From the NCBI GenBank assembly GCA_964058845.1, contig CAXKVR010000060.1:62001-126000 (forward strand): a DNA stretch of 64,000 nucleotides. The letters are read 5' to 3'. The notes under the pieces were generated by a model, which searched no databases, was not told the DNA's origin, and saw nothing but the letters and a program-made list of their open reading frames with translations. The stretch comes from Carex sylvatica (lineage: Eukaryota; Streptophyta; Magnoliopsida; Poales; Cyperaceae). Below, one piece after another: positions 2,524 to 61,821 of the stretch. The position numbers and the translations under genes are program-made. Within the stretch, counting starts at the first letter, position 1. Each line of letters starts with the position of its first letter.

Positions 2524-5500
2524 TTACATACCTGAATCATCGAATAACTCAAGGTATTGCTCTCGGATCTTTGCCTCCAATTCCCACGTAGCTTCTTTCT
2601 CCGAATGACGTCCCCACTGCACCAATACCAGATCTATCACTCGGTTTCTCAATCGTTGCTCCTTTCGATCTAATACCTGCATCGGTCCTTCAGTATAAGC
2701 AAGGTTCTCGTCCAGAAACAGATTGGAATGATCGATGCAATGTGACGGATCCCGTACATATTTGCGAAGCTGCGAAACATGAAATACCGGATGAACCCGG
2801 TCCAACGCCGGTGGCAATGCCAACTCATAAGCCACGAGTCCAACTCGACTCAAAATCTGAAATGGTCCGATGTATCGCGGACTCAGCTTACCCGAAACTC
2901 CGAATCTGTGCACTCCTCTAGTCGGAGATACACGAAGCCAAACATGCTCGCTTTCCTGAAATTCCAGCGGTCTACGGTGTATATCCGCATACTTCCTTTG
3001 TCTATCCTGAGCTGACTTCAATCGACTCAGTATCACTTGCGTTTTCTCCGCTGCTTCCTGAATCAGTTCTGGCCCAGTAGACGGATGAATACCCGTCGGT
3101 CCCCACCACAACGGTGTCCTGCAAGTTTCACCAGTCAGAGCTTCGTATGGTGGCATCCCGATACTCGAATGGAAGCTGTTATTGTATGCAAATTCCACCA
3201 AGTGCAAATGATCGAGCCACGATCCCGGAAAACTCAAAGCACAGGCCCGTAGCATATCTTCTAAAGTCTGAATCGTCCTTTCAGATTGTCCGTCAGTCTG
3301 AGGATGGTGCGCTGTGCTGAACCTCAACTTCGTGCCCATATTCTCTTGAAAACTCTTCCAAAAATGTGAGGTAAATCTGGTATCCCGATCAGATATGATT
3401 TCCCTCGGACATCCGTGATACTTAACAAACATTTTCAGAAATAATCCAGCTAGTGTCCGTCCCGATGTATCGGGTCCAAGCGGAATAAAATGCGCAACTT
3501 TCGTCAACGTGTCCACAATCACCCAGATAGTATCATATCGACCCGTTGTTCTCGGAAACCCTGATACAAAGTCCATGGCAATAACCTCGAATTTCCCTCG
3601 CTTCTTATCCATTGGTTGCAGCAATCCAGCTGATTTCCGTCGATCAGCTTTGACCTGCTGGCAAACCTGACACTTCTCTACATATCCCGTCACTTCCCTT
3701 TTCATGTTGGGCCACCAGAAATACCGTCTCAGATTCTGATACATCTTTACTTCTCCCGGATGAATCGTGTATCCAGAATCGTGTGCCTCTGATAAAACTA
3801 AGGTCTTTAACTCCGAATCATCCGGAAGGCATATACGGTTGTCAAACCACAACATACCTTCACTATCCAACTTGAAATGACTATCTTGGTTCGATGTTGC
3901 ATACTCCCAGAATTTCTGACATTTCTGATCTCCTTGCTGAGCTACCCGGATACGATCATGTAACTCTGGTCTTACTTCTATTACTGCGGCTATCATACTT
4001 ACTCCGGCTGACTTGCTCGTGCCTGCTTCAGACTTAATCAAATGAGCTGATACTGCTTCTGCTAACTCTCCAGATATTCCAACATACAAGCTCATAAGCC
4101 TCATCTCTTCGATTAACCGCACTTCACTTGTGATCGCGGTTGCCAGATTAACTTGACTTTTCCGACTTAAAGCATCTGCTACTACATTAGCCTTTCCTGC
4201 ATGATACTGGATATCCAAATCGTAATCTTTCATTAGCTCCAGCCACCTCCTTTGCCTCAGATTCAATTCCTTCTGAGTGAAGACATATTTCAAACTCTTG
4301 TGATCGGTGAATATCTGACATTTGACGCCATATAGATAGTGTCTCCAAATCTTCAGTGCAAATATCACGACTGCCAACTCCAAATCGTGCGTCGGATAAT
4401 TTTGCTCATGCGGTCTCAACTGCCGCGATGCATACGCAATGACTTGGCCTTCTTGCATCAATACACAACCTAAACCCGCACGAGAAGCGTCGGTAAACAC
4501 CGTGTAATCCTTTCCAGTTATTGGCATAGTTAGAATCGGTGCTGAAACTAACCGACTCTTTAATTCCTCAAAACTCCTTTCCTGTTTTTCGCCCCATTCG
4601 AACTTAACACCTTTATGCAGTAATGCCGTAAGTGGTCGGGCTAACTGCGAGAATCCTTTAACAAATCTGCGGTAATACCCGGCCAAGCCGAGGAAACTTC
4701 GAATTTCTGTAACTGTGGTTGGCCTCTTCCATTCCGTAACTGCTCGTATCTTTTCCGGATCCACTGCCAAACCCTCGCCTGACACAATATGCCCCAAGAA
4801 AGCCACTTTGTTCATCCAAAACTCGCACTTCGAAAATTTCGCATACAACTTGTGATCCCTCAGTCTTTGCAGTACAACCCTCAGATGCTCTTCATGCTCC
4901 TCCATCGATCGGGAATAAATCAATATATCATCTATAAACACTACTACACTTGTATCCAACAAATCCCGAAAAACTCGTTGCATTAAATTCATAAAAGCTG
5001 CCGGTGCGTTTGTCAATCCGAATGGCATGACCCGGTACTCATAATGCCCGTACCGAGTTCGGAAAGCTGTCTTTTCTACGTCACTTGAGTTGATACGGAG
5101 CTGATGATACCCGGTTCTCAGATCAATCTTGGAATAAACCGAGGATCCTTGCAATTGATCGAATAAGTCATCGATCCTCGGTAACGGGTACTTGTTCTTC
5201 ACAGTAACCTTATTCAGCTCGCGGTAATCGATGCATAACCTCAATGTACCATCCTTCTTTCTCACGAATAACACCGGTGCTCCCCAGGGTGAGGTACTCG
5301 GTCGGATAAAGCCCTTTTCCAACATTTCTTCTAGCTGCATCTTCAGCTCTTTCAGCTCAGCTGGTGCCATTCTGTACGGTGCCTTCGATATTGGTAGTGT
5401 GCCCGGCATCAGATTGATATTAAAATCCACTTCACGATCCGGCGGTAAACCTGTAATCTCATCAGGAAATACGTCTGCAAACTCTGCAACAACTGGAATG

Positions 5501-7116
5501 TCAGATATCTCCGGAACCTTAATGTTGGTACTCATAACCATTATCAAGTAGGCTGGACACCCAGACTCTATCAGGTGTCTCGTCTCAATTGCAGAAACAT
5601 ACGGTACAATCTCCTTGGCTCCTCTACACTTAAAGACACACGAACCTCCTGGCAAACCAAACAGAACAGACCGATGCACGCAATCTATGGTGGCTACATG
5701 CTCGACTAGCCAATCAAAACCCAGTAAGGCATCATAGTCGGTTATATCCATAACCAACATATCTGCGGTAAAATCCCTTCCATCTACTCGTACCTTCAGG
5801 TCTCGGCAAGTTCGTGCAATTTTGGTAGTTGAACCGAGAGGGGTATTAATGTCCAATACTCGCCCGCTCGATTCGGTAGCCCACCCACATTTATCCACTA
5901 ATGCACTCGCAATGATTGAATGGCTACAACCCGTATCAATTAACACATATGCAAGATAGCCCGAGATAGAGATTATACCTGCCATCAGATCCGTCTGAGT
6001 AGGAACCGGTGCTATCTCGGTGCTCTCCTCAGGCAACTCAACTACATCTATAGCTCTCATGCTCACCCTTCCTCCATTTCTACCTCCCCGCTGCTGCGGT
6101 GCCATACCTCGACTCCTGATCAACGGTAAGCCTCCACGTCCTTGCCCCTGCGGTACTCTATAACCCGCACCGCTGCTACTGCCTCCAGCTGAACCCGAAT
6201 AAGTGTTCGGGCAATCCTTAATCCAATGATCAGTGCTGCCACAACGAAAGCAGGTCTGTTTCAAGCGGCGACACTGAGACTCGGTGTGTGGCATATTGCA
6301 ATGGCGACACCATGGCTTAGGAGCTCCAGGGGTGAAACTCGGTACAACCTGACCTCCAGTTGGGTATCGAGGAGCTGGTGGTCTAGCCCCCGATCCACTA
6401 GCCTGCTGGCGCGAGTCAAATTTAGGTCTGACATTTCTTGCTTGGCTTTGTTGCCTGCTTCTCTTGAGATACATTTCTGTTTCCTCCGCACACTTCATCA
6501 AAGCTGGAATCCCTTCTGCCGGAGTGTGATGTATCGCCAGTGCAACCCTCGGATCCAACCCGTCTAAATACTGCCTTCGGTATCTCACAACATCCCCCTT
6601 TACATCAGGTGCATATCTAGACAACTCATAGAACCTCCGGTTGTAATCCTCAACAGATCTCTCATTCTGTTTTAAGTTCAGAAACTGGCTTCTCAGAGCT
6701 TCTTTGTGCAAGCTACTCAGAAATTGTTCTCCGAATCTCCGCTCGAACTCCTCCCATGTAATACCTTGCGCAACCCCCGCGTATTCAATCTTTATACCAT
6801 CCCACCAGTGTCTACCCGTCTTTTCCAGCAACTGCACAGCTAACTCCACTTTATTTCCTTCCGGTACGCGGCACAGCTCAAACTTATCTTTTACTCCTGA
6901 GATCCATTCTTCAGCTGCGGTGTATCCCCCCGATCCGTCAAACCGAGGGGGTTTCAACCTCATAAATGTTTCATAAAGCTGACGGAACTCTTCTCCAGCT
7001 GTTCCGGCTCCTGCTGCTTGTCCTTGATTTGCCCTTTCATTTGCGGTACGGCCCCTTTCATAGGCCGCCAGCAAGATTTCTGCAAATTCTCTTTCTGCGA
7101 ATCCCCTTTCACCCAT
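2524..7116 (-). CDS. Gag-Pol polyprotein of the Tekay-type chromovirus
   Basis: An uninterrupted ORF of 1530 residues starting at ATG 7114-7116. Domains in order: a retrotransposon Gag region (about 50-230); one CCHC zinc knuckle ([14 protein letters not shown], about 288-301); an aspartic protease with LIDTGCSH near 393; reverse transcriptase with the FIDD active site near 727; RNase H with its first aspartate in FTDAS near 870; and integrase with an HHCC zinc module (about 1110-1160) and a D,D35E core (D near 1180, D near 1242, E near 1278). The last about 50 residues (about 1475-1525) form a chromodomain-like segment including VQWGR and ATWEL, which marks chromoviruses. All catalytic motifs look intact, so the element may be autonomous. 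Gag and Pol are in one frame, as is usual for plant chromoviruses. Confidence 0.95.
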
Positions 7117-16737: not shown

Positions 16738-19461
16738 ATGGCTGAGGCGGCCATTCTTGCAGCCCTTCGGGTCCTTGGAGAAACCTTAACTAATGAAGGA
16801 GCCAAGCTAGCAATCTCAAAATTTTCAAGGCTTTGCTCAACATACAAAAACCTTGAAGCAAACATAAACAATATTAATAGTGAACTTCGGGTGATGCAAG
16901 GATTTCTTGATGGGATAGAAATGGACGATCAGAGCAATAAACCTCAAGTAGCTTGGATAAAAGAGGTACAGGAGTTAGCAAATCACATTGAAGATGTCGT
17001 GTCTGAATTTGCATACCTAATTAATAATCATAAGTTTGGTGGAATATCCATTTATGTTACCAAACTTTTTAAAGATCCAATTGCTCAAATTGCCTCTCAA
17101 TTGTTCGGAGCAGAAACAAGGCTTGTGAATCTTGCAAGGATGAGAGAGAGATGGGTGCCGACAACAAATGTCAGTACTGGGGAAAACTCACACTACTCAA
17201 ATGAATACTCATATAAAATGGCCATCTCTGCCCATTTCATTGATGAAGATCAAATCGTGGGAATAAAAAATAATAGCGGGAAGTTGACGAGCTGGCTAAA
17301 TTCTAAAAATCTAGAACTCTCTGTGATATCTGTTTGGGGAATGGGTGGTGTAGGCAAAACAACCCTTGTTACTAATGTTTTCAAGAGAGAGAAAAATAAC
17401 TTTGATTGTCATGCATGGATAAATATCTCTCAATCTTACACCCTGGATAATCTTCTCCAAAATATTATCTCCAGGATTTGTAAAGAAGGGAAAAATAATT
17501 CAATCAACACAGGCAATATGGATCTCAGAGAATTAAAAGAAATAGTGGTCAAACTCTTGAAAGAAAAAAAATATCTAATTGTATTAGATGATATGTGGGA
17601 TCTAAAAGCATTTCAAGATATAAGGGACACGCTTGTTAATGACCATCGAGGAAGCCGAATTATGATTACGAGTAGAATTGCAAGTGTCGCATCTCTTGCT
17701 CCAGAAAGAAATAGGTTAGAGCTAAAACCTTTACCAGAATTAGATTCATGGGACCTGTTTTGTAAAAAGGCGTTTCCTATTGAAAGAAACCATGAATGTC
17801 CTCAACCCTTGAGGAGGTGGGCAAAAGAGATTGTTTCGAAGTGTGACGGGTTGCCATTAGCACTTGTTTCTTTGGGTGGTGTATTATCTTGCTCTGAGAA
17901 AACGGAATCTGAATGGAGACGTGTACATGATCAACTAACCTGGGAACTAGACAACAACCCAAATTTGGATCCACTTAAAAATATTCTTAATCTAAGCTTT
18001 AAGTACCTTCCAAAATACCTCAAGAATTGCTTTCTACATTGTAGTTTGTTTGCAGAGGATTTTCGCCTTCCGAGAAAAAAACTACTAAGGCTTTGGATAG
18101 CTGAGGGCTTTATACAACAAAAAGGGAGAAGCACATTAGAAGAGGTAGCAGAGGGTTATCTTATGGAGCTCATACATCGCAGCATGTTACAAGTAGTACA
18201 AACAAATTATTTTGGTCGAGTGAAGAGGTGTCAAATGCATGATACCTTGAGAGAGTTGGCCATCTCTTTATGCAAAAGAGAAAACTTTGGATTGATGCTA
18301 GAGGATAACAAGTCAGAAAATGCCGATGGTTCTACTCGCCGGCTCTCAATAATCAATCTAAGGGAGACAGTCAAGCATGATGTTTGTCTACCAAAACTCA
18401 GAACCTTTTTGTCACTTGACAATGATGTGCTCTCATCTCCTTTTCTATCCATGATTTTTGGTAAGTCAAGGTATCTTACCGTTCTGGATTTAGAAGGCTT
18501 GCCAATTGAAATGGTTCCAAATGCAATTGGGGATTTGTTCAATCTCCACTACTTGGGTCTGAGGAAAACAAAGGTTAAATCTTTACCAAAATCTATCAAC
18601 AAACTTCAAAACTTGCAAACATTAGATCTCCTTTTTTCTCAGATACAAACACTACCAAATGGTATAGCAGAGCTAAAAAAGTTACGGCATCTATTTGCTG
18701 AGGTGGTGGTAGATCCTACACATAGGTCATTTTGGATCCGTACTGGAATCTCTCCACCTAAGGGCATATTTTACCTGAAACATCTCCAGACTATACAGTC
18801 ATTAGAATCGAATTCTATGGTAGTAAGAGAACTGGGTAATTTAACTCAACTGAGAAGCTTCCGAATAATGAATGTGAAAGAAAACCACTCAGTAGAGTTA
18901 TGCAAATCATTATCAAAGATTAGTTTCTTTTCATACTTATCTATTAATGCAAGTGATGAGAAAGAGATTCTCCAATTGGAAGGCCTGAACCTCCCACAAC
19001 TTCAGAAGTTTATTCTCAGAGGGAAACTAAAAGAAACCATGCTTGAATCACTTTTATTCAAAATATCTGGGGATAGTATCCAAACGCTACATCTTGGATG
19101 GTCTCAATTCCAAAATGATCCTCTGCCATCTCTTTCCCATTGCAGAAACCTCACGTTCTTGAACTTCAAAAGAACATATGAAGGGCAACGACTAATTTTT
19201 CAAACAGGATGGTTTCCTAAACTGAAGAGACTGGACTTGGAAATAATGCCTAATCTGATTCATGTGGAGATGGAGCAGGGCACCATGGCGAGCCTTGAAG
19301 AGATTGGGTTGAGGGAACTGGAACAGCTAGTGGAGGTCCCAAAGGGCATCGAGCACCTCGTTTCCCTCAAGTGGATGTATTGCAAATATATGCCTGTTGA
19401 TTTTGGGAATTTAGCTGAAGGAACTCACCAACTATTTCATTTCACCTGTCGTGTTTTCTAG
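16738..19461 (+). CDS. CC-NBS-LRR (CNL) immune receptor, RPM1-like (NLR1)
   Basis: A single-exon gene of 907 residues for a cytoplasmic intracellular immune receptor that senses pathogen effectors or their effects and triggers defence. An Rx-type coiled coil occupies about 1-150 with an EDVID-like IEDVVSEF near 84. The NB-ARC domain follows: P-loop GMGGVGKTT (201-209), kinase-2 LIVLDDMWD (280-288), RNBS-B MITSR, GLPLAL (371-376), an RNBS-D-like CFLHCSLFAEDF, and MHD as QMHD (499-502). Short leucine-rich repeats run from about 530 to 880. All nucleotide-binding motifs are intact. It closely resembles NLR2 in this window, most strongly from the MHD motif through the LRRs. The start AUG is fixed by the conserved MAE(A/T)AIL and by equal upstream context in NLR2. 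A conserved GTGCAAG|GTAT after the stop suggests a 3'-UTR intron. Family assignment is strong; the recognised effector is unknown. Confidence 0.95.
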   Translation: MAEAAILAALRVLGETLTNEGAKLAISKFSRLCSTYKNLEANINNINSELRVMQGFLDGIEMDDQSNKPQVAWIKEVQELANHIEDVVSEFAYLINNHKFGGISIYVTKLFKDPIAQIASQLFGAETRLVNLARMRERWVPTTNVSTGENSHYSNEYSYKMAISAHFIDEDQIVGIKNNSGKLTSWLNSKNLELSVISVWGMGGVGKTTLVTNVFKREKNNFDCHAWINISQSYTLDNLLQNIISRICKEGKNNSINTGNMDLRELKEIVVKLLKEKKYLIVLDDMWDLKAFQDIRDTLVNDHRGSRIMITSRIASVASLAPERNRLELKPLPELDSWDLFCKKAFPIERNHECPQPLRRWAKEIVSKCDGLPLALVSLGGVLSCSEKTESEWRRVHDQLTWELDNNPNLDPLKNILNLSFKYLPKYLKNCFLHCSLFAEDFRLPRKKLLRLWIAEGFIQQKGRSTLEEVAEGYLMELIHRSMLQVVQTNYFGRVKRCQMHDTLRELAISLCKRENFGLMLEDNKSENADGSTRRLSIINLRETVKHDVCLPKLRTFLSLDNDVLSSPFLSMIFGKSRYLTVLDLEGLPIEMVPNAIGDLFNLHYLGLRKTKVKSLPKSINKLQNLQTLDLLFSQIQTLPNGIAELKKLRHLFAEVVVDPTHRSFWIRTGISPPKGIFYLKHLQTIQSLESNSMVVRELGNLTQLRSFRIMNVKENHSVELCKSLSKISFFSYLSINASDEKEILQLEGLNLPQLQKFILRGKLKETMLESLLFKISGDSIQTLHLGWSQFQNDPLPSLSHCRNLTFLNFKRTYEGQRLIFQTGWFPKLKRLDLEIMPNLIHVEMEQGTMASLEEIGLRELEQLVEVPKGIEHLVSLKWMYCKYMPVDFGNLAEGTHQLFHFTCRVF

Positions 19462-33237: not shown

Positions 33238-33242
33238 CTAAT

Positions 33243-33589
33243 TGTTGAATATTGATACAAAATTAGAATCCGAATATTTCAGATTTAGAGATCTGGATGC
33301 AACGTGTTGTGATGTATTTTTAGGCATGTAGTTGAGTTAGTGGGTTCTATAATTAGTCATGTAGGTTTTGTTTATAATAGCATGATACATGGGGAATAAT
33401 TCTATTTTGGGGACTGCTTGTAATAGGAGGATAGGTAGTGGGGTCCTAAATTTAGATGTTCTAGATTTAGATTAATGTTTAGCTATAAATTGAGATGTAC
33501 TTTGTATCCGAATTAAGGAAGCAATAGAAGTTAAATTTCAGCAGCAAATTTGTTCTCTCTATTGTTGTATCCTTCAGAAATTTCCAACA
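33243..33589 (+). repeat. 5' LTR of the PB1-carrying copia element
   Basis: 347 bp with canonical TG...CA ends. It matches the right LTR except for two substitutions by eye (CAGCAAATT/CAGTAAATT and TTTCC/TTTTC). A CTATAAATTGAG stretch near 33483 is a plausible TATA box. Confidence 0.93.
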
Positions 33590-33635
33590 AATTGGTATCA
33601 GAGCCTAAGGTTTAGAGATCAGGGCAGATCCGACC

Positions 33636-35777
33636 ATGGCAGAAAACATGAGCGTTTCGAATCCGTCGATTCCGTTGTTCAAGGGAGACAACTATGAGTT
33701 TTGGAGCATCAAGATACGAACTTTGCTCAAGTCTCAAGGTCTATGGGAATTGGTGGAGACGGGAGCACCGGGCATAGATCCCACACCAGCAGAAACAGCG
33801 AAGCGAGATGCGAAGGCGCTGTTCTTCATTCAACAAGCCGTTGTTGACACGGTGTTCACAAAAATAGCAGCAACGGCATCGGCAAAGGAGGCCTGGACAA
33901 CCCTGAAAACTGCATTCCAGGGAAGTTCGAAAGTCCGCGAGATAAAGCTACAAGGCTTGAGAAGAGAGTTTGAGACGTTGGACATGAATCAAGGCGAATC
34001 TATTCAAACATTTCTCACAAGAGTCACATCCACCGTCAACCAAATCAAGAGTTGTGGTGAAGATATCACAGAAAAGATAGTGGTTATGAAGGTACTCCGC
34101 AGCCTTACAACAAAATTTGACCATGTCGTGGCAGCAATCGAAGAGTCCAAGGACCTGTCCACATACTCTTTCGACGAGTTGATGGGATCACTGCAGGTCC
34201 ATGAAGTTCGTCTCAACCGATCAGAAGTGAAGGATGACACCAAAGCTTTCTATACCAAGGGTGATTCCTCAAGAAGCCAACAGCAAGGCAGAGGTCTAGG
34301 CCAAGGTAACAGCAGAGGTCGTGGAAGAGGCAAGAGCAGTGGAGACAACCGTCAACAACAACAAACAACAAAGAAGGATATTGAGTGCTACTATTGCCAC
34401 AAGTTTGGTCACGTCAAGGCAGACTGCTACAAGAAGAAGTGGAAAGACGGACAAGGCAAGCAAGGCGTTGAATGCCACTATTGTCACAAAATCGGCCATG
34501 TGCAGGCTGATTGCTACAAGAAGAAGCGTGAGGAAGAACAAGCCAATATTGTAGAGGAAAATGAGCAACCATCACTCTTCATGGCACACACCGAAAGCAA
34601 GATTGATGCAAGCAGCAAGAGCACAGTAGGAGTGCATATAAAAGAAAATGGTGGCAGCAGTCCAGGAAGTGGCAAAATCATGGTGAGTAGAAATATTTTG
34701 TTTGATGAAAAAGCCCTCAAGGTGGAGAATCTAGGGCTCAATCGTAAGAGGCCGTTGAAGCTAGTGTACAACCATGATATACGACTAGCTCAGATGCCAG
34801 AAAAATGTAGTTTCAAGGTGTTGAGAGATATTGTGACAAAGATTTTTCCTTCATTAAAATCTGTGCTGATCAAGTACAAGGATTCTGATGGGGATCTGGT
34901 TACCATTACTGATACACAAGTGCTGAGGATGGCAGAATCATGTTTTGACCAGCCTGTACAGATGGAGGCAGAGAAAGAAGAAAAAGGACTTTCCTTGATG
35001 AGACTATATATTGTAGAAGTCAATCCTGAGCAAGAGCCTACAATCACGGAGGAGGAAGATCATGTAGTCGAAGAAGAAGAAGAGCCCATAGAAGAAAAGA
35101 TAGGAGAGGGAGATGAAAAAGAAGAGTTTACAAAAGGAAGGAATATTGATAAGAAGAGAGAAGTAAGAATTCTAGCACTAGATGGCAGTGGATTGACTCC
35201 AGACCTGTTAACCCAAGCAGAGGTAATCATGGAAAGAGGAGGTGACATGCCAAGTCAAGTGTCTGATTCCTTTGGAAATGGAAGAGGTTTTCTGGAGATG
35301 AAAAGTATTAAGGGAGATATTTTGAAAAAGATGATCACAGAAGATACTGTTATCAAGCAAGAGAAGGTAATTGTCAAGGTTGGTGAAAGTTCAAAGCAAG
35401 CAACTGTGGCGTTGTCAACCTCTGAGGCAAAATATTCAGCAGTCGGTTCAGCGGCTTGTCAAGCAGTTTTGTTGAGGCGTATACTTGCTGATTTTGAGCA
35501 GGAACAGCAACAGCCTACAGTGATATTCTGTGACAACCAATCAGCAATAGCAATGGCGCAAAATCCAGAAGTTCATGAAAGGACCAAGCATATTGACATA
35601 AGTGTTCATCTCATTCGTGACCTTGTGACAAATGGTGACGTTGAGATCAGATATGTCAATTCAGACAAGCAGGTAGCAGTCGTGCTTACGAAGGCATTGG
35701 CACAAAGCAAATTTGAACAATTTCGTTCGGCACATGGAGTTGGCAATTTTGTATCAAGGGGGAGTGTTGAATATTGA
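33636..35777 (+). CDS. Gag-PB1-RNase H fusion protein of the copia element
   Basis: An intact 713-residue ORF. Residues about 1-230 are copia Gag (IPLFKGDNYEFWSIKIRTLL near 11). Two CCHC knuckles follow, CYYCHKFGHVKADC (251-264) and CHYCHKIGHVQADC (280-293), from a local duplication. At about 330 the retroelement sequence stops. Residues about 372-465 read as a PB1 domain: basic start RKRPLKLVY, then IKYKDSDGDLVTITDTQ as the acidic OPCA motif, ending LYIVEVNPEQEP. From memory this is closest to plant TPR-PB1 (PHOX/CLMP1-type) proteins. A Glu-rich linker and an unrecognised segment (about 500-585) follow. Copia RNase H resumes at about 588 (ATVALSTSEAKY, FCDNQSAIAMA, RTKHIDI) but lacks its first catalytic aspartate. 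All parts are in one frame. Protease, integrase and RT are absent. The PB1 could mediate head-to-tail protein assembly with Gag; that is inference. Confidence 0.85.
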   Translation: MAENMSVSNPSIPLFKGDNYEFWSIKIRTLLKSQGLWELVETGAPGIDPTPAETAKRDAKALFFIQQAVVDTVFTKIAATASAKEAWTTLKTAFQGSSKVREIKLQGLRREFETLDMNQGESIQTFLTRVTSTVNQIKSCGEDITEKIVVMKVLRSLTTKFDHVVAAIEESKDLSTYSFDELMGSLQVHEVRLNRSEVKDDTKAFYTKGDSSRSQQQGRGLGQGNSRGRGRGKSSGDNRQQQQTTKKDIECYYCHKFGHVKADCYKKKWKDGQGKQGVECHYCHKIGHVQADCYKKKREEEQANIVEENEQPSLFMAHTESKIDASSKSTVGVHIKENGGSSPGSGKIMVSRNILFDEKALKVENLGLNRKRPLKLVYNHDIRLAQMPEKCSFKVLRDIVTKIFPSLKSVLIKYKDSDGDLVTITDTQVLRMAESCFDQPVQMEAEKEEKGLSLMRLYIVEVNPEQEPTITEEEDHVVEEEEEPIEEKIGEGDEKEEFTKGRNIDKKREVRILALDGSGLTPDLLTQAEVIMERGGDMPSQVSDSFGNGRGFLEMKSIKGDILKKMITEDTVIKQEKVIVKVGESSKQATVALSTSEAKYSAVGSAACQAVLLRRILADFEQEQQQPTVIFCDNQSAIAMAQNPEVHERTKHIDISVHLIRDLVTNGDVEIRYVNSDKQVAVVLTKALAQSKFEQFRSAHGVGNFVSRGSVEY
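34749..35031 (+). other. PB1 domain coding segment, host-derived
   Basis: Encodes residues 372-465 of the fusion ORF. Hallmarks seen: a conserved lysine in the first strand (PLKLVY), a central VLRDIV helix, the acidic DSDGD turn and a closing beta strand LYIVEV. Plant TPR-PB1 proteins have the same order, with similar wording around the IRxAQxP and QEP residues (recalled, not searched). The segment has no introns, which fits capture through RNA. Confidence 0.75.
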
Positions 35778-36111
35778 TACAAAATTAGAATCCGAATATT
35801 TCAGATTTAGAGATCTGGATGCAACGTGTTGTGATGTATTTTTAGGCATGTAGTTGAGTTAGTGGGTTCTATAATTAGTCATGTAGGTTTTGTTTATAAT
35901 AGCATGATACATGGGGAATAATTCTATTTTGGGGACTGCTTGTAATAGGAGGATAGGTAGTGGGGTCCTAAATTTAGATGTTCTAGATTTAGATTAATGT
36001 TTAGCTATAAATTGAGATGTACTTTGTATCCGAATTAAGGAAGCAATAGAAGTTAAATTTCAGCAGTAAATTTGTTCTCTCTATTGTTGTATCCTTCAGA
36101 AATTTTCAACA
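35765..36111 (+). repeat. 3' LTR of the PB1-carrying copia element
   Basis: 347 bp directly after the polypurine tract. The last codons of the fusion ORF run 13 bases into this LTR. The right target copy CTAAT follows at 36112-36116. Confidence 0.93.
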
Positions 36112-36598
36112 CTAATTGCTGAATTCGAATCAAAAGGCAGGTTATATAGATAACTCATGTGCAGTAGCATTTACAACAAAACACACCATAGAATGTTCAC
36201 ATAGGCAACATACATACTGATACAAGCAAGAAAGATCAATAGCCATTTCATTATTTTACAAAATTTACTAGTGAAATCGTAAGAGGTAAGATAAGAATGC
36301 AATAATGTTTTTATTATTTCTTGATTACATTTCACAGTACATTGTATTGCCCTTTATATAGAGAATGTAGTTACAAGCTCAATCACAGAAGCATGTAGAC
36401 GCATAGTCTGTTATAACTAATTATCTCAACTACCATCCTAATAGCCTATGCTAACTAACTGTGTTGACCGATCTTGAGTATGCATTGACTGATCTTGAGC
36501 AGTCACTGTGATGACTCTATTAACTAGCTTTTTTTTTTTCGTTAAAAGGTCAGATAGAGACTTGGTATCATAAAAGACCAGGAAATTTCCCAAGTAAA

Positions 36599-38407: not shown

Positions 38408-41400
38408 ATGGCCGACGCCGCACAGACTCCTCCTCCCACCAGTCCAATAATACCAATCAATTTTCCCATTGCCACGAAACTTAATCAAAATAATTATCTC
38501 ACATGGAAATCTCAAATACAACCCATTATCCACGGTTTCAATTTAAACCATTTTTTAGATGAACCAGCACCAACAAAGACCATTCAAACCGAAGCCGGTG
38601 TGACTCAAGATAACCCGGCTTTTCACCCATGGAACCTCCAGGATCAATTTCTCCTTGGTTGGATTCGCTCATCACTAACCGAAGGTATTCAAGGACAAGT
38701 TGCTAATTGTCTCACTACACGCGAGCTTTGGTCTACGCTTCGACAGATTTATTCCGCCACCTCCCGGGCTCGCCTCACAGACTTGAAATGCCAACTTCAA
38801 ACCACCACCAAAGGAACATCCTCTTGCACCGACTATCTTCAGGCCATGCGACGTATAGCAGATGAACTTGCTTTTTGTGGTTCCCCTATGCCCGACGAAG
38901 ATCTAGTTATGACGGTTCTTAACGGGTTAGGTCCGGAATTCGATTCCTTTGTCATCTCCGTCACCACTTCAGGTAGACCTTTTACTTTTGCTGACCTTCA
39001 TGGACACCTTCTTAGCCATGAGTCTCGGCTCCAAGGCCACACTTCTAGCACCGGCCTTCTTCCATCACCGCCCAACCCCACGGCATTTATAGCAAAAACC
39101 AACAATAACTATCAAAACCGGCCTCCTAACCACCAAAACCGATCCAATAATTACCAAAATCGTACCAATAACCATCAACCCCGACCTAACAACTATCAAA
39201 ACCGGCCTCCTAACCAATACCAGTCCCCATCTAATAACCCCCAACCACGTTATTCCAACAATAATTATCACCCCAAACCGAAATCTATTTCAAATAGCCA
39301 AAGACCGAACTACCAACCAAATCCGAAACCTCAATGTCAAATTTGCACCAAATTTGGTCATGTAGCCAAAGAATGCTATTTTAGGTATGAAGTTGATCCA
39401 ACATATCAAGGCCGGCCACCCACCTTCCAAGCCTATGTAGCCGAACCCTCCTCCTCTACCAATTCCTCCACCGAATGGGTGCTAGACTCGGGCGCTACCA
39501 ATCATGTCACTCATGATCTCAACAATCTCTCTTCTTTTTTCAATTATGATGGGCAAGATACTCTCCAAATTGGCAATGGTACGGGTTTGTCAATTCTTCA
39601 CATTGGTTCATCTACTCTCACTTTCTCTTCTCATCCTATCTCTCTAAATAACATATTACATGTTCCAAGCTTTTCAAGGAACCTCTTAAGCCTCTCACAA
39701 CTTATACAAGATAATCCTCATTTAACCATTGAATTTTCCTCTTTCTCTTGTTTTTTAAAGGACCACCTCACCAAGACTACTATTCTCCAAGTTCCTTGCA
39801 ATAATGGACTCTTCTTCTTTTCACAACCTCGCTCCACACCACTTCAAGCTTTCCTTGGTGTCCGTGCTTCGGCCGATACTTGGCACGCTCGCCTTGGACA
39901 TCCATCCTCCACTACTACCTTACATTTACTACAAAATTCTCATTTACCTTGTAATTCAAATAAGTTGAGCACTTGCCATGATTGTTTTTTGGCCAAGTCT
40001 CACAAACTTCCTTTTACTCCTTCTATCTCCTCTACTACTAAACCTTTAGAACTTGTTCATTCGGATGTTTGGGGTCCTTCCCCTGTTATTTCATATAATG
40101 GCTTTCGGTTTTATGTGATTTTTGTTGATGATTTCTCGAAATTTACATGGATTTATTTTATGAAACACAAAAGCGAAGTACCTCACCTCTTTTCCCTCTT
40201 CAAAGCTCAAGCCGAAAACTTGCTCTCAAATACAATTAAAACATTGCGCACGGATGGAGGAACCGAATACCTTCCAATTGCAACTAAATTTCCCAATATA
40301 ATACACCAAACCACTTGCCCCTACACACCTCAACAAAATGGACTAGCCGAAAGAAAGCATCGACACATTATTGAATTAACCTTGGCCGTCATGTCCCATG
40401 CTTCTATCCCTTCCCTTTATTGGGATGAGATTTGTTCAAGTATTGTCTATCTCATTAACCGCCTCCCATCACCATCCCACAACTCCAAAATCCCTTATAC
40501 CGAACTTTTCAATAAACAACCCGATTACTCATTTCTTCGTATCCTCGGTTGCCAATGCTTTCCGTATACTCGGCCATATAACTGTCACAAACTTGAGAAC
40601 CGTGCTCTTCCTTGTATTTTCCTTGGCTATGCAACAAATCAAAAGGGCTACCGATGCTTACACTTGCCATCCAACCGCCTTTACATCTCGCGACATGTTC
40701 AATTTGATGAAAAATACTTTCCCTTTAAAATTACCAACCAAAACCCATCTGCCTCTGCCTCCACCGAAACACCTCAAATTTTTTCTTTTGCACCAGCCCC
40801 TTTTTACCACCAGGCCGAACCCTTCTCCATCTCTTCAGCAGCCCCAACCAACACAATTTCAGCCCAACAACACCCCACTTCGCACCAGCCCAACAGGGAC
40901 ACTATGCCGCCTTCTAATCATCCCACCTCCTCTACCAGCGAACCTCAACCCAATCAAACCAGCAGCAGCTCTAACCCGCCTACTGCACCTACACCCAACC
41001 ACCCCATGACCACACGACTTCGTGATAACACAAGAAAACCACGTGTCTTTCCCGACCATGTTGCCTTCTCTGCTACTCTGGAATCCGAACCCCATAACTT
41101 CTCTCAAGCAAATACTCAACCCGAATGGCGCAATGCTATGGCCCTTGAGATGAATGCTCTTGTTCAAAATAACACTTGGACTTTGGTTCCTTCTCACCCG
41201 AATCAACAAGTCATTGGATGTAAATGGGTCTATAAAATCAAACGGCGAGCCGATGGTTCCATTGAGCGTTACAAGGCACGATTAGTGGCCAAAGGATATA
41301 ACCAAGTCGAAGGTATCGATTATTTTGACACCTTCAGCCCTGTTGTCCGACCCACTACGATCCGGTTAATTCTTTCTATTGCCATCTCATCTCATTGGCC

Positions 41401-42622
41401 TATTCGACAGCTAGATGTTCACAATGCATTTTTGAATGGTGACCTATCCGAAAAGGTACTCATGTCTCAACCACCAGGCTTTATTAACCCTGATTACCCT
41501 AATCATGTTTGCCTTCTCTCTAAGGCACTCTATGGCCTCAAACAATCATCCCGTGCTTGGTTCAACAAACTCAGTTCGGTTTTGCTCTCTCATGATTTTG
41601 TGGCCTCTACCTATGATCCTTCGCTCTTCACATCCCACTCCAAGGACCATACCACTATGATTTTAATCTATGTGGATGACATCTTAATAACTGGTAGCAA
41701 CCCTTTACATGTTCAAAGAATCATTGACCAACTTCAACAAGCCTTTTCTCTAAAAGACCTTGGCCCTTTACACTATTTTTTGGGGATTGAAGTTACATCT
41801 CAACCTCATGGCTCCCAATTTTCTCAAACCAAATACCTCACCGATCTCCTTACAAGAACCAATATGTTTTCGGCTAAGCCTTGCTCCACACCCATGGCCA
41901 CAAATTCCAACCTTTCAAGTGATGACAGTACACCATTTCATGACCCAACCCTATACAGAAGCATAGTTGGTGCTCTCCAATATGCTACTATTACTAGGCC
42001 GGATCTCTCTTTTGCCGTTAACAAGGTTTCTCAATTCATGCATGCTCCAACCATCAACCATTGGTCCGCGGTTAAGCGTATCTTGCGCTATATCCGTGGT
42101 TCCCTTGACCATGGCCTCTTCATTCACTCCGATTCCTCAAATTCTTTACATGCTTATAGTGATGCCGATTGGGCCGGCTCCATTGATGATCGGCGCTCCA
42201 CTACCGGTTTTTGCATCTACTTAGGCCGAAACCTAATTTCATGGAGTGCTAAGAAACAACCCACTGTATCGCGCTCAAGCACCGAAGCCGAATATCGAAG
42301 CTTAGCAATTACTTGTGCCGAACTTCTTTGGGTCCAATACCTGCTAGCCGAACTCAACATCTCTCTGGTCACAACCCCAACTCTTTGGTGTGATAATCTT
42401 GGTGCCACATTTCTCGCGGCAAACCCAATGTTTCATGCAAGAACCAAACATGTTGAAATTGATTACCACTTCGTTCGCGAAAGAGTTGCTTCCAATGAGC
42501 TACAGGTTAAATTCTTATGTTCAAAGGATCAACTAGTGGACATTTTTACCAAGCCTTTGCCTCCAACAAGATTTTCATTTCTTCGCTCCAAGCTTTCAAT
42601 GGCTCCTGCCACTTCCGCTTGA
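38408..42622 (+). CDS. Gag-Pol polyprotein of the full-length copia element, Ale/Retrofit-like
   Basis: A 1404-residue uninterrupted ORF. In order: copia Gag (about 20-230); an Asn/Pro/Gln-rich tandem-repeat linker (about 225-300, repeats of NYQNRPPN); a CCHC knuckle CQICTKFGHVAKEC (309-322); protease WVLDSGATNHVT (357-368); integrase zinc region starting WHARLGHP (492); integrase core D553, D616 and E648; reverse transcriptase with YVDDILITGS (1088-1097); and RNase H with SDADWAG near 1250, RSSTEAEY and the final RTKHVEIDYHFVRE. Between the second D and the E only 31 residues lie, against 35 usual for copia integrase. All other motifs look intact. Lineage by motif wording is Ale/Retrofit-like, moderately sure. 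The start ATG is 4 bases after the primer site. Confidence 0.95.
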   Translation: MADAAQTPPPTSPIIPINFPIATKLNQNNYLTWKSQIQPIIHGFNLNHFLDEPAPTKTIQTEAGVTQDNPAFHPWNLQDQFLLGWIRSSLTEGIQGQVANCLTTRELWSTLRQIYSATSRARLTDLKCQLQTTTKGTSSCTDYLQAMRRIADELAFCGSPMPDEDLVMTVLNGLGPEFDSFVISVTTSGRPFTFADLHGHLLSHESRLQGHTSSTGLLPSPPNPTAFIAKTNNNYQNRPPNHQNRSNNYQNRTNNHQPRPNNYQNRPPNQYQSPSNNPQPRYSNNNYHPKPKSISNSQRPNYQPNPKPQCQICTKFGHVAKECYFRYEVDPTYQGRPPTFQAYVAEPSSSTNSSTEWVLDSGATNHVTHDLNNLSSFFNYDGQDTLQIGNGTGLSILHIGSSTLTFSSHPISLNNILHVPSFSRNLLSLSQLIQDNPHLTIEFSSFSCFLKDHLTKTTILQVPCNNGLFFFSQPRSTPLQAFLGVRASADTWHARLGHPSSTTTLHLLQNSHLPCNSNKLSTCHDCFLAKSHKLPFTPSISSTTKPLELVHSDVWGPSPVISYNGFRFYVIFVDDFSKFTWIYFMKHKSEVPHLFSLFKAQAENLLSNTIKTLRTDGGTEYLPIATKFPNIIHQTTCPYTPQQNGLAERKHRHIIELTLAVMSHASIPSLYWDEICSSIVYLINRLPSPSHNSKIPYTELFNKQPDYSFLRILGCQCFPYTRPYNCHKLENRALPCIFLGYATNQKGYRCLHLPSNRLYISRHVQFDEKYFPFKITNQNPSASASTETPQIFSFAPAPFYHQAEPFSISSAAPTNTISAQQHPTSHQPNRDTMPPSNHPTSSTSEPQPNQTSSSSNPPTAPTPNHPMTTRLRDNTRKPRVFPDHVAFSATLESEPHNFSQANTQPEWRNAMALEMNALVQNNTWTLVPSHPNQQVIGCKWVYKIKRRADGSIERYKARLVAKGYNQVEGIDYFDTFSPVVRPTTIRLILSIAISSHWPIRQLDVHNAFLNGDLSEKVLMSQPPGFINPDYPNHVCLLSKALYGLKQSSRAWFNKLSSVLLSHDFVASTYDPSLFTSHSKDHTTMILIYVDDILITGSNPLHVQRIIDQLQQAFSLKDLGPLHYFLGIEVTSQPHGSQFSQTKYLTDLLTRTNMFSAKPCSTPMATNSNLSSDDSTPFHDPTLYRSIVGALQYATITRPDLSFAVNKVSQFMHAPTINHWSAVKRILRYIRGSLDHGLFIHSDSSNSLHAYSDADWAGSIDDRRSTTGFCIYLGRNLISWSAKKQPTVSRSSTEAEYRSLAITCAELLWVQYLLAELNISLVTTPTLWCDNLGATFLAANPMFHARTKHVEIDYHFVRERVASNELQVKFLCSKDQLVDIFTKPLPPTRFSFLRSKLSMAPATSA

Positions 42623-59085: not shown

Positions 59086-61821
59086 ATGGCCGAGACAGCC
59101 ATTCTTTCAGCCCTCAAGGTCCTTGGAGCAGCCTTGGCTGAAGAAGTAACGAGCCTAGCAACCTCAAAAATTTCAGATCTTCGATCAATTTACGCAAACC
59201 TCAAATTAAACATGAGCAACATTAGTACTGAACTTCGAGTGATGCAAGGATTTCTTAATGGGATAGAAACAGACAACCCAAGCACTGAATCTCAAGTAGC
59301 TTGGATAAAAGAGGTACAGAAGTTAGCAAATGATATTGAAGATATCGTGGTTGAATTTGCATACCTAATTGGTAATCAGAAGTTTGGTGGAAAATCATTT
59401 TATCTGAAAAAACTTTTTAAAGAGCCCAAGTTATTGATAGCTCTTAAACGAATTGCCTCTGAACTGCTTGAAGCAGAGGAAAGGCTTAAGAACCTTGCAA
59501 GGATTAAAGAACGATGGTTGCCAACCATAGAAAAAAAAAATGAAAAGAACTCTAACTTCTCAAACAAGTACTCACACAATGTGGCTGTCTTTGCGCATGT
59601 CGTGGATGAAGATCATCTTGTGGGCATCACAGAAGATAGGGTGAAATTAACGAAGTGGCTAAATTTTGAGGAGCCACAACTCTCTGTTGTATCCGTTTGG
59701 GGAATGGGTGGTGTAGGGAAAACTACATTGGTGGCCAATGTTTATAAGAGAGAAAGAAAAAACTTTGATCGTCATGCATGGGTTTCTATATCTCAATCAT
59801 ATACCACTGAAACTATTCTACGGAATATAATCTCTGAAATATGTAGGGATGAGAAGGGTGTTAAAATTGATGCAACCAACATGGATGTTTTGAGATTGAA
59901 TACAACTTTACAAAATCTTTTGGGAGAACATAAATATCTGATCGTGTTAGATGATATGTGGGATCCAAAAGCATTCCTTGATATAAGGGACACACTTGTT
60001 GATAACCATCGGGGAAGCAAAATAGTGATTACTAGCAGAATGGCTGAGGTAGCTAATCTTGCTCCAGAAAACAAGAGACTAGAGCTAAAACCTTTCTCAG
60101 AAACATATTCATGGTCCTTGTTTTGTAGAAAGGCTTTTAATCATGAAATAAACCACGCATGTCCTCCTCCCCTGGAAGAGTGGGCAAGAAAGATTGTTTC
60201 AAAGTGTGGTGGATTGCCACTGGCTATTGTTTCCTTAGGTGTTATGTTGTCCGTGTTTGAGAAGACAGAATCCAAATGGAGACTGTTATTTGATCAACTT
60301 AGCTGGCAGCTAGACAACAACCCAAGCTTGGATCCATTGAAAAATATTCTTATGCTAAGTTTCAAGTACCTTCCAAAGTACCTCAAGAATTGCTTTCTAT
60401 ATTGCAGTTTGTTTCCAGAGGATTTTCTTCTTCCAAGAAAGAAACTGTTAAGGCTTTGGATCGCTGAGGGCTTTATAGAACAAAAAGGGAGAAGCACATT
60501 AGAAGAGGTGGCAGAGGGTTATCTCATGGAACTCATAAATCGCTGCATGTTACAAGTTGCAAAAAAAAATTATTTTGGTAGGGTGAAGAGGTGCAAAATG
60601 CATGACACGTTGAGAGAGTTGGCCATCTCTTTGTGCAAAAGAGAAAATTTTGGATTGATCCTAGAGGATAACAATTCAGAAAATGCTGGTGGTTCTACTC
60701 GTCGGCTGTCAATAATCAATCTGAGGGAGACGGTCAACCATGATGTTTGTCTACCAAAACTCAGAACCTTTTTGTCAGTTGACAATAATGTGCCCTCATC
60801 TCCTTTGCTATCCATGGTTTTTGACAAGTCAAGGTATCTTACTGTTTTGGATTTAGAAGGCTTGCCAATAGAAACGGTTCCAAATGCAATTGGGGATTTG
60901 TTCAATCTCCACTACTTGGGTCTGAGAAACACAAAGGTTAAGTCTTTACCAAAATCTATCAAGAAACTTCAAAACTTGCAGACCCTGGATCTCTGTGGTT
61001 CTCAAATACAAACACTACCAGATGGCATAGCAGAGCTGAAAAAGTTACGGCATCTATTTGCTGAGGTTGACTTAGATCCTACATATAGGTCATTTCATAC
61101 TCATACTGGAATCTCTTTACCTAAGGGCATATTTTACCTGAAAGATCTCCAGACTATACAGGCATTAGAATCAAATGCTATGGTAGTAAGAGAACTGGGT
61201 AATTTAACTCAACTGAGAAGCTTCCGAATATGGAATGTGAAAGAAAACCACTCAGTAGAGTTATGCAAATCATTATCAAAGATGAGTTTCATTTCCTTCT
61301 TATCTATTAGTGCAAGCGATGAGGAAGAGATTCTTCAATTGGGAGGCCTGAACCTCCCACAACTTCAGAAGTTACGTCTATGTGGGAAACTGAAAGAAAC
61401 CATGCTTGAATCGCCTTTATTCAGAATATCTGGGAATAGCATCCAATCGCTATGGCTTTGGTGGTCTCAACTACAAAATGATCCTCTGCCATCTCTTTCC
61501 CATTGCAGAAACCTCACGGACTTGGAACTCAATAGAGCATATGATGGACAACAACTAATTTTTAAGGCAGGGTGGTTTCCTAAATTGAAGAAACTGGAAT
61601 TGAGACAAATGCCTAATATGATTCAAGTGGAGATGGAGCGGGGCACCATGGCGAGCCTTGAAGAGATTTGGTTGAGGGAACTGAAAAAGCTAGTTGAGGT
61701 CCCAAAGGGAATCCTGCACCTCGTTTCCCTCAAGCGGATATTCTGCAGAGATATGCCTCAGTTTGGGGGTTTATCTAGAGGATCCCACAAACTATTTCAT
61801 TTCACCTGTGTTGTTCACTAG
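59086..61821 (+). CDS. CC-NBS-LRR (CNL) immune receptor, RPM1-like (NLR2)
   Basis: Single exon, 911 residues, a close paralogue of NLR1. An Rx-type coiled coil is at about 1-150 with IEDIVVEF in the EDVID position. NB-ARC has P-loop GMGGVGKTT (206-214), kinase-2 LIVLDDMWD (285-293), VITSR, GLPLAI, CFLYCSLFPEDF and MHD as KMHD (about 504-507). Short LRRs lie between about 535 and 885. All ATP-binding motifs are intact, so it is probably functional. Compared with NLR1, the coiled coil and the solvent-exposed LRR positions differ most; long stretches between MHD and the middle LRRs are nearly the same. The start context GAGCATGGC is identical to NLR1. A conserved splice-like GTGCAAG|GTAT lies in the 3' UTR. 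Confidence 0.95.
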   Translation: MAETAILSALKVLGAALAEEVTSLATSKISDLRSIYANLKLNMSNISTELRVMQGFLNGIETDNPSTESQVAWIKEVQKLANDIEDIVVEFAYLIGNQKFGGKSFYLKKLFKEPKLLIALKRIASELLEAEERLKNLARIKERWLPTIEKKNEKNSNFSNKYSHNVAVFAHVVDEDHLVGITEDRVKLTKWLNFEEPQLSVVSVWGMGGVGKTTLVANVYKRERKNFDRHAWVSISQSYTTETILRNIISEICRDEKGVKIDATNMDVLRLNTTLQNLLGEHKYLIVLDDMWDPKAFLDIRDTLVDNHRGSKIVITSRMAEVANLAPENKRLELKPFSETYSWSLFCRKAFNHEINHACPPPLEEWARKIVSKCGGLPLAIVSLGVMLSVFEKTESKWRLLFDQLSWQLDNNPSLDPLKNILMLSFKYLPKYLKNCFLYCSLFPEDFLLPRKKLLRLWIAEGFIEQKGRSTLEEVAEGYLMELINRCMLQVAKKNYFGRVKRCKMHDTLRELAISLCKRENFGLILEDNNSENAGGSTRRLSIINLRETVNHDVCLPKLRTFLSVDNNVPSSPLLSMVFDKSRYLTVLDLEGLPIETVPNAIGDLFNLHYLGLRNTKVKSLPKSIKKLQNLQTLDLCGSQIQTLPDGIAELKKLRHLFAEVDLDPTYRSFHTHTGISLPKGIFYLKDLQTIQALESNAMVVRELGNLTQLRSFRIWNVKENHSVELCKSLSKMSFISFLSISASDEEEILQLGGLNLPQLQKLRLCGKLKETMLESPLFRISGNSIQSLWLWWSQLQNDPLPSLSHCRNLTDLELNRAYDGQQLIFKAGWFPKLKKLELRQMPNMIQVEMERGTMASLEEIWLRELKKLVEVPKGILHLVSLKRIFCRDMPQFGGLSRGSHKLFHFTCVVH

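Follow-up and report, generated by a model that had tools for sequence, protein, structure and literature searches.

A recently mobile copia-type element of Carex sylvatica with a host-derived PB1 domain in frame behind Gag

A single open reading frame (ORF) of 713 codons, free of internal stops (33636..35777, + strand), lies within an LTR element in the window, by which we mean the whole 64,000-nucleotide stretch of Carex sylvatica DNA that was analysed. An earlier, sequence-only reading had taken it for an in-frame fusion of Gag, a PB1 domain and RNase H. This raises the question of where the parts of the fusion came from, how the element moves, and whether a PB1 domain behind Gag is of any use to it.

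The whole non-autonomous element occupies positions 33243-36111 (+ strand, as are its LTRs, priming signals and coding parts). Its two LTRs, 347 bp each and of the TG...CA type (33243..33589 and 35765..36111), are identical at 345 of 347 positions; the two differences, both C/T, are at LTR positions 303 and 342. A perfect 5-bp target site duplication (TSD), CTAAT, is found at 33238..33242 and 36112..36116. Just past the 5' LTR is the primer binding site (PBS) TGGTATCAGAGCC (33593..33605), which we take to be of the initiator Met tRNA type, and directly before the 3' LTR is the polypurine tract (PPT) AAGGGGGAG (35756..35764). The same bases stand after the 5' LTR and before the 3' LTR in three relatives of the element, L034, L035 and L036. 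The stop codon of the ORF is located within the 3' LTR. The intact ORF, the near-identical LTRs, the duplication and the two priming signals were thus all as first described, and the paired TG...CA LTRs with a 5-bp TSD are those of a copia LTR retrotransposon.

The ORF begins with Gag (residues 1-329, 33636..34622), i.e. a capsid and two zinc knuckles. The Retrotran_gag_2 profile of copia-type Gag (Pfam PF14223) matches residues 28-197 at 2.8e-32, and the zinc-knuckle unit is present in duplicate with an 87-bp period (34381..34546). Two scraps of pol follow: TVGVHIKENGG (residues 330-341, 34623..34658), which was aligned by eye with GTIAVHTKENG from the protease region of the autonomous ORFs, and the C-terminal integrase scrap GKIMVSRNILFDEKA (residues 342-360, 34659..34715), which in tblastn matches each of L034, L035 and L036 at 68% over 19 aa. 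Next comes a captured piece of PHOX/CLMP1 type, made of a PB1 domain and an acidic tail (residues 361 to about 500, 34716..35135, the 3' border being approximate), at 76% to residues 281-425 of the C. littledalei protein P0003. It is followed by the tail of a plant mobile domain (PMD) protein, about residues 509-588 (35160..35399), the match of residues 509-591 to residues 561-645 of C. rostrata P0122 being at 67% over 85 aligned columns, and by a C-terminal RNase H fragment (residues 585-712, 35388..35771), at 67% over 128 aa to the end of the L034 ORF.

The similarity to RNase H starts at about KQATVAL, and the counterpart of the L034 segment GYSDSDWAG, which holds the first catalytic Asp, is missing from the window ORF. 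A functional RNase H requires all its catalytic acids, and loss of the first Asp kills catalysis; the window ORF does not have the full set. No RNase H, reverse transcriptase (RT), integrase core or protease was matched by Pfam in the window ORF at E<=10, the same library finding both RVT_2 and rve in the autonomous L034 ORF. The RNase H of the proposed fusion is therefore there as a C-terminal part, the part with the first catalytic Asp being gone. As to the claim that PB1 replaces protease, integrase and RT, the absence of these domains stands, but PB1 is not all that is found in their place: protease and integrase scraps and a PMD-protein tail are present as well.

The identification of PB1 was borne out by a Pfam search (2.3e-11, 43.9 bits for a cut-off of 23.6, residues 373-438); the domain proper extends over about residues 373-455 (34752..35000). 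In PMC7051960, PB1 types are defined by a lysine in beta1 and by the OPCA core. The window domain keeps the beta1 lysine and the DSDGD core, as in type 1/2 PB1, and K15, D56, D58, G59 and D60 are all conserved in 16 of 18 copies of the element, window included; the exceptions are L055, with N60, and L051, with a gap. The acidic residue after the OPCA core, E in 25/25 CLMP1 proteins, is V in 18/18 copies and in P0001, an annotated C. rostrata protein. In the predicted structure, which is of modest confidence (mean pLDDT 60.4), strands and helices follow one another as in a PB1 domain, and PB1 domains head the list of its PDB matches, none of which reaches E<=0.001.

Judging from similarity, the donor of this domain is a sedge PHOX/CLMP1 TPR-PB1 gene. 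The 109-aa PB1 fragment is at 84% to C. littledalei, 80-81% to Rhynchospora and 69% to Juncus, so that a parent-type host gene, as had been postulated, is found in sedges. In the PB1 tree (support 75-100, read after re-rooting and hence approximate) the element copies and P0001 cluster inside the sedge CLMP1 sequences. Four residues of the fragment, N19, L47, V69 and F77, are present in all 18 copies (and in P0001) and in 0/25 CLMP1 proteins, which implies a single capture. Two further residues characteristic of the element, T41 and M72, are shared by 4/25 and 2/25 CLMP1 proteins, respectively. In the 64-Mb assembly the CLMP1 parent gene was not found with the captured piece, the PB1 profile or the whole C. 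littledalei protein as queries. The profile gave 21 matches, 18 of them cassette copies; the three non-element places (on C312, C36 and C646; L037-L039) had no match to the CLMP1 query.

The second donor family was recognized through P0122, which is a PMD protein (PF10536, 5.1e-100). A JGI record, P0123, is a second PMD protein with the same tail, which favours transfer from a PMD gene to the element rather than the reverse. A search for the PMD donor in the 64-Mb assembly returned element tails and weak PMD-domain matches only, and the donor protein could itself be transposon-borne. Two putative host-derived pieces were thus captured, and for the CLMP1 piece and the PMD piece alike the attribution is clear. 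The proposal that a host-derived PB1 piece was fixed in frame behind the Gag zinc knuckles holds, with one 713-codon frame and a PHOX/CLMP1 donor.

The fusion is also found in C. rostrata. The pieces of P0001 (663 aa) follow one another as in the window ORF up to the PMD piece, which is longer in P0001; its C-terminus does not align with the RNase H part. Its PB1 fragment is at 92% to that of the window. Its Gag is at 91% over residues 1-277 to the Gag of the autonomous element on C100 (L034), versus 79% over residues 1-158, the best local match, for the window Gag. P0001 and another C. rostrata protein, P0121, have the PMD piece in common up to ...EEEDDVEAW and then diverge, one of them entering a receptor-like kinase; an exon end within the element could be used there for chimeric transcripts.

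A search of the 64-Mb assembly with the cassette, i.e. the captured pieces and the pol scraps, gave 25 matches at 21 places: 18 copies (window included), a piece at the end of contig C225 and a mosaic on C194 and C510. Among the first eight full-length matches listed, six had no stop. LTR pairs are present in 17 of the 18 copies. Gaps apart, the two LTRs differ at 0-9 positions in 16 of these copies and at 18 in L055; no pair was found for L053. Perfect 5-bp TSDs, differing from one copy to another, flank 15 of the 16 copies assessed (14 of 15 by script, plus L002, CTTGG, by eye; L053 and L055 are outside this tally), and that of L008 has one mismatch. An age of less than 1 My is obtained for 14 of the 16 LTR pairs dated (L002 left out) if substitutions accumulate at 1.3e-8 per site per year. 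Together with the two LTR differences of the window element, this bears out the suggestion of recent movement. The internal junctions, four in number, were compared in 20 rows (18 copies, the C225 piece and the mosaic): 19 rows cross any given junction, with 91-100% identity to the window, and the integrase-CLMP1 junction is 100% identical in all 19 rows that span it. The window element is therefore not the sole copy, and a mis-joined contig or other assembly error is ruled out by the many copies, their separate TSDs and their agreeing junctions.

Some copies showed peculiarities. L007, L008 and L052 have a common 42-nt in-frame deletion in the acidic tail, which marks a cassette subfamily. 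In another PB1-family copy, L047 (1743-3511), there is a direct repeat of about 315 bp, some 1.1 kb apart; part of it appears twice in the ORF alignment, and it may be a rearranged element piece, not a nested one. At G000:C462:10876-11863, two stretches about 0.65 kb apart match the PB1-family LTR without any cassette match, possibly a very short derivative of the family.

How does an element devoid of RT move? In the same genome, L034 and L035 each consist of one ORF, of 1364 and 1350 aa, between identical LTRs; Pfam finds Gag, Pol_BBD, gag_pre-integrs, rve, an SH3-like integrase domain and RVT_2 in L034. The window ORF aligns with the autonomous ORF at both ends (Gag and the last 128 RNase H residues) and in the 19-aa integrase scrap; the window Gag is at 59-62% to those of L034, L035 and L036. 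Leader, PBS and PPT match as well, and the LTR matches L034, L035 and L036 in its last 82-102 bp only (72-77%). No intact autonomous element with a window-type LTR was seen in the 64-Mb assembly. Among the 150 of 620 RT candidates that were scored, at least six match the L034 RT at 99-100%, two of them in long frames; the next match by score is at 58%, and a broken piece on C199 is at 68%. This piece (G000:C199:17682-20696, partly L061) is a copia relative whose Gag is at 78% to that of the window over residues 1-276, and it may indicate that a closer autonomous relative once existed. Another relative, L063 (1581-5204), is an RT-deleted copia copy with an autonomous-type Gag and an LTR whose last 160 bp are at 99% to the PB1 family, and would thus link the two LTR groups; the frame adjoining it looks NLR-like by eye.

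The divergence among copies is very uneven. The mean pairwise synonymous difference among the 18 copies is 0.20-0.29 in Gag, as compared with 0.08 in RNase H and 0.03-0.07 in the stretch between them, which begins with the scraps and ends with the PMD piece. Likewise, identity to the window is 92-100% for the cassette (93.5-100% without the mosaic) and 87-99% for RNase H, and forms a patchwork of 70-98% in Gag. The window Gag DNA itself is at 98% to L034 across nt 1-150 and at 67-89% in its remaining segments. In L055, nt 300-600 of Gag are at 93-96% to the autonomous L034 and the cassette is at 94-96% to that of the window. Five copies (L002, L007, L048, L049 and L050) match the window LTR over its 3' part only. 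The mosaic on C194 and C510 is a different copia, with a Gag frame at 46% to the P0001 Gag and a protease-region frame that continues into the knuckles and the first half of PB1 (L058 1614-4276, same on L057); it is a further recombinant of the cassette. What stays constant among the copies is thus the cassette, around which segments of Gag and of the LTRs are exchanged. This swapping, with the L034-like Gag of L055, suggests co-packaging and trans-mobilization. The earlier view that the element is mobilized in trans gains support from the recombination, from the cis signals in common with an autonomous relative and from the presence of RT-bearing relatives in the same genome.

Taken together, these data lead to the following scenario. 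A copia element shed its protease, most of its integrase, its RT and the front of its RNase H, and a PHOX/CLMP1 piece (PB1 plus acidic tail) and a PMD-protein tail took their place in frame, once. Transcription from the LTRs would give a Gag-PB1 fusion protein. The element RNA, with its PBS, leader and PPT, would enter mixed particles with the RNA of an autonomous relative, which would supply protease, integrase and RT in trans, and template switching between the co-packaged RNAs would replace parts of Gag and of the LTRs and leave the cassette as it is. The PB1 domain, if used, would most likely link Gag-PB1 molecules with one another or with PB1 proteins of the host. We regard this explanation as a whole, a chimera of single origin supplied in trans and reshuffled by template switching, as very probable; the anatomy, donor families, single origin of the cassette, recent mobility and patchwork Gag are what the sequences themselves indicate.

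Within this scenario, the captured pieces could be inert filler in an open frame, with only Gag and the cis signals counting for the element, a reading which we consider evenly poised between true and false. Mean pairwise dN/dS is 0.19 for the Gag capsid, 0.32 for the knuckle region, 1.06 for the scraps (i.e. around 1), 0.36 for PB1, 0.60 for the acidic tail, 0.62 for the PMD piece and 0.49 for RNase H. Changes shared by at least two copies (N, nonsynonymous; S, synonymous) indicate constraint on the capsid (21 N, 53 S; P<1e-12), although the low dN/dS of Gag may stem partly from autonomous donors via recombination. They reveal no constraint on the PMD piece (10 N, 2 S) and give 16 N and 10 S (P 0.12-0.24) in RNase H, a fragment in which a catalytic residue is missing. 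The cassette has about as many nonsense changes as expected under neutrality (3 private seen for 2.8-3.5 expected, 0 shared for 1.3-1.7 expected), so that depletion is not clear there; it is not significant in RNase H, and for Gag the count is confounded by indels in the knuckle region that compensate one another. The V that stands in every copy for the acidic residue after the OPCA core also fits inert filler. On the other hand, PB1 has fewer replacement changes (dN/dS 0.36) than the flanking cassette (0.60-1.06), its key residues are kept in most copies, and, of the cassette indels counted by eye (nested insertions left out), the two shared ones are multiples of 3 and 5 of 6 private ones are not, the numbers being small.

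Purifying selection on PB1, assessed by N and S counts and binomial tests, is suggestive only. The shared changes are 12 N and 10 S (P 0.04-0.11 depending on the assumed kappa), or 8 N and 7 S in a stricter tally of two-state columns, the private ones 20 N and 11 S (P 0.16-0.36), and in its substitution counts PB1 is not different from the remainder of the cassette (P 0.20, Fisher test). The dN/dS comparison among copies that had been called for thus places PB1 below the flanking cassette, and the binomial test on PB1 itself is marginal.

If the domain does work, it may let Gag-PB1 polymerize or bind host PB1/PHOX (MadB) proteins, which would aid assembly, packaging or myosin-based movement. 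This we see as possible but somewhat unlikely. It accords with the conservation of key residues on both PB1 faces, with the PB1-like model and its first PDB matches, and with the 18 cassette copies as against at least six close RT copies among the 150 of 620 candidates scored. It is also in line with a report, in PMC7051960, that PHOX/MadB proteins work with myosins, preferably via PB1. It has against it the marginal selection test and the acidic residue lost in every copy. In its more specific form, with co-assembly through PB1 chains or docking on PHOX/MadB-myosin providing an edge in packaging or transport, we find it rather doubtful.

A third possibility, that Gag-PB1, like the truncated Ty1 Gag p22, poisons or titrates the particles that the autonomous element forms, could draw on the whole Gag region with its C-terminal extension and on the same excess of copies over RT-bearing elements (at least six among the 150 of 620 scored). 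It seems improbable: the chimera itself spreads, so that particles containing it must work, and the identical LTRs of L034 and L035 mean that autonomous elements moved recently. That the ORF is a domesticated host gene, as the annotation of P0001 as a protein in C. rostrata might suggest, or an artefact of contig joining, is refuted by the LTRs, the TSDs and the separate insertions with the same junctions, and its chance of being right is negligible.

Capture of genes by plant LTR elements is already known; what appears new is a host PB1 domain in frame behind Gag, for which no example was found in the literature searched, which took in few subscription papers. The reading that we retain, a trans-supplied chimera of single origin, recalls maize Bs1, which is said to be without its own RT and to move in trans. 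According to PMC13317346, Bs1 is an LTR element that has transduced pieces of three host genes, the donors named being an ATPase, a xylan endohydrolase and a glucanase; the window element would likewise hold pieces of more than one host gene, if the PMD donor is itself a host gene. It differs from Bs1 in that its PB1 shares a frame with the whole Gag that precedes it, and in that the family is multicopy and recombines. TR-GAG elements, as described in PMC8704663, are also short LTR elements; they have a single ORF, for Gag, and an autonomous relative, and one of them transposes in Arabidopsis ddm1. They code for Gag only, whereas in the window element Gag is fused to host pieces and pol scraps, so that Gag is not the sole coding domain, PB1 and the PMD tail sharing its frame. 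Acquisition of a PB1 domain by a plant transposon lineage has a parallel in the MUSTANG-B genes MUG7 and MUG8 (PMC8616336); these, however, are of DNA transposon (MULE) origin, are now host genes and carry PB1 on an added 5' exon. Compared with the PHOX/CLMP1 (MadB) TPR-PB1 proteins, the donor family of the PB1 and acidic-tail piece, the element has not taken over the TPR repeats and the C-terminal part, and it has derived residues, including the change from E to V after the OPCA core.

Elsewhere in the window there are two resistance-type genes of the NLR class, each in a single frame (Rx_N, NB-ARC, LRR; 16738-19461 and 59086-61821). Several retroelement frames are also present in the window, among them an open copia frame of 1404 aa (38408-42622) and an open gypsy-type frame of 1530 aa (2524-7116).

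To conclude, this is a recently mobile multicopy family for which an intact autonomous relative is in view, as are relatives of the two donors. With it one can test whether capture of a domain brings a retroelement new function, and whether modules of the coat protein are shuffled between co-packaged RNAs around a cassette that stays fixed. If PB1 is a working part, one capture would have given rise to a cassette that was preserved whole during the exchange of Gag and LTRs, and a plant retroelement would have upgraded its coat protein with a host polymerization domain.
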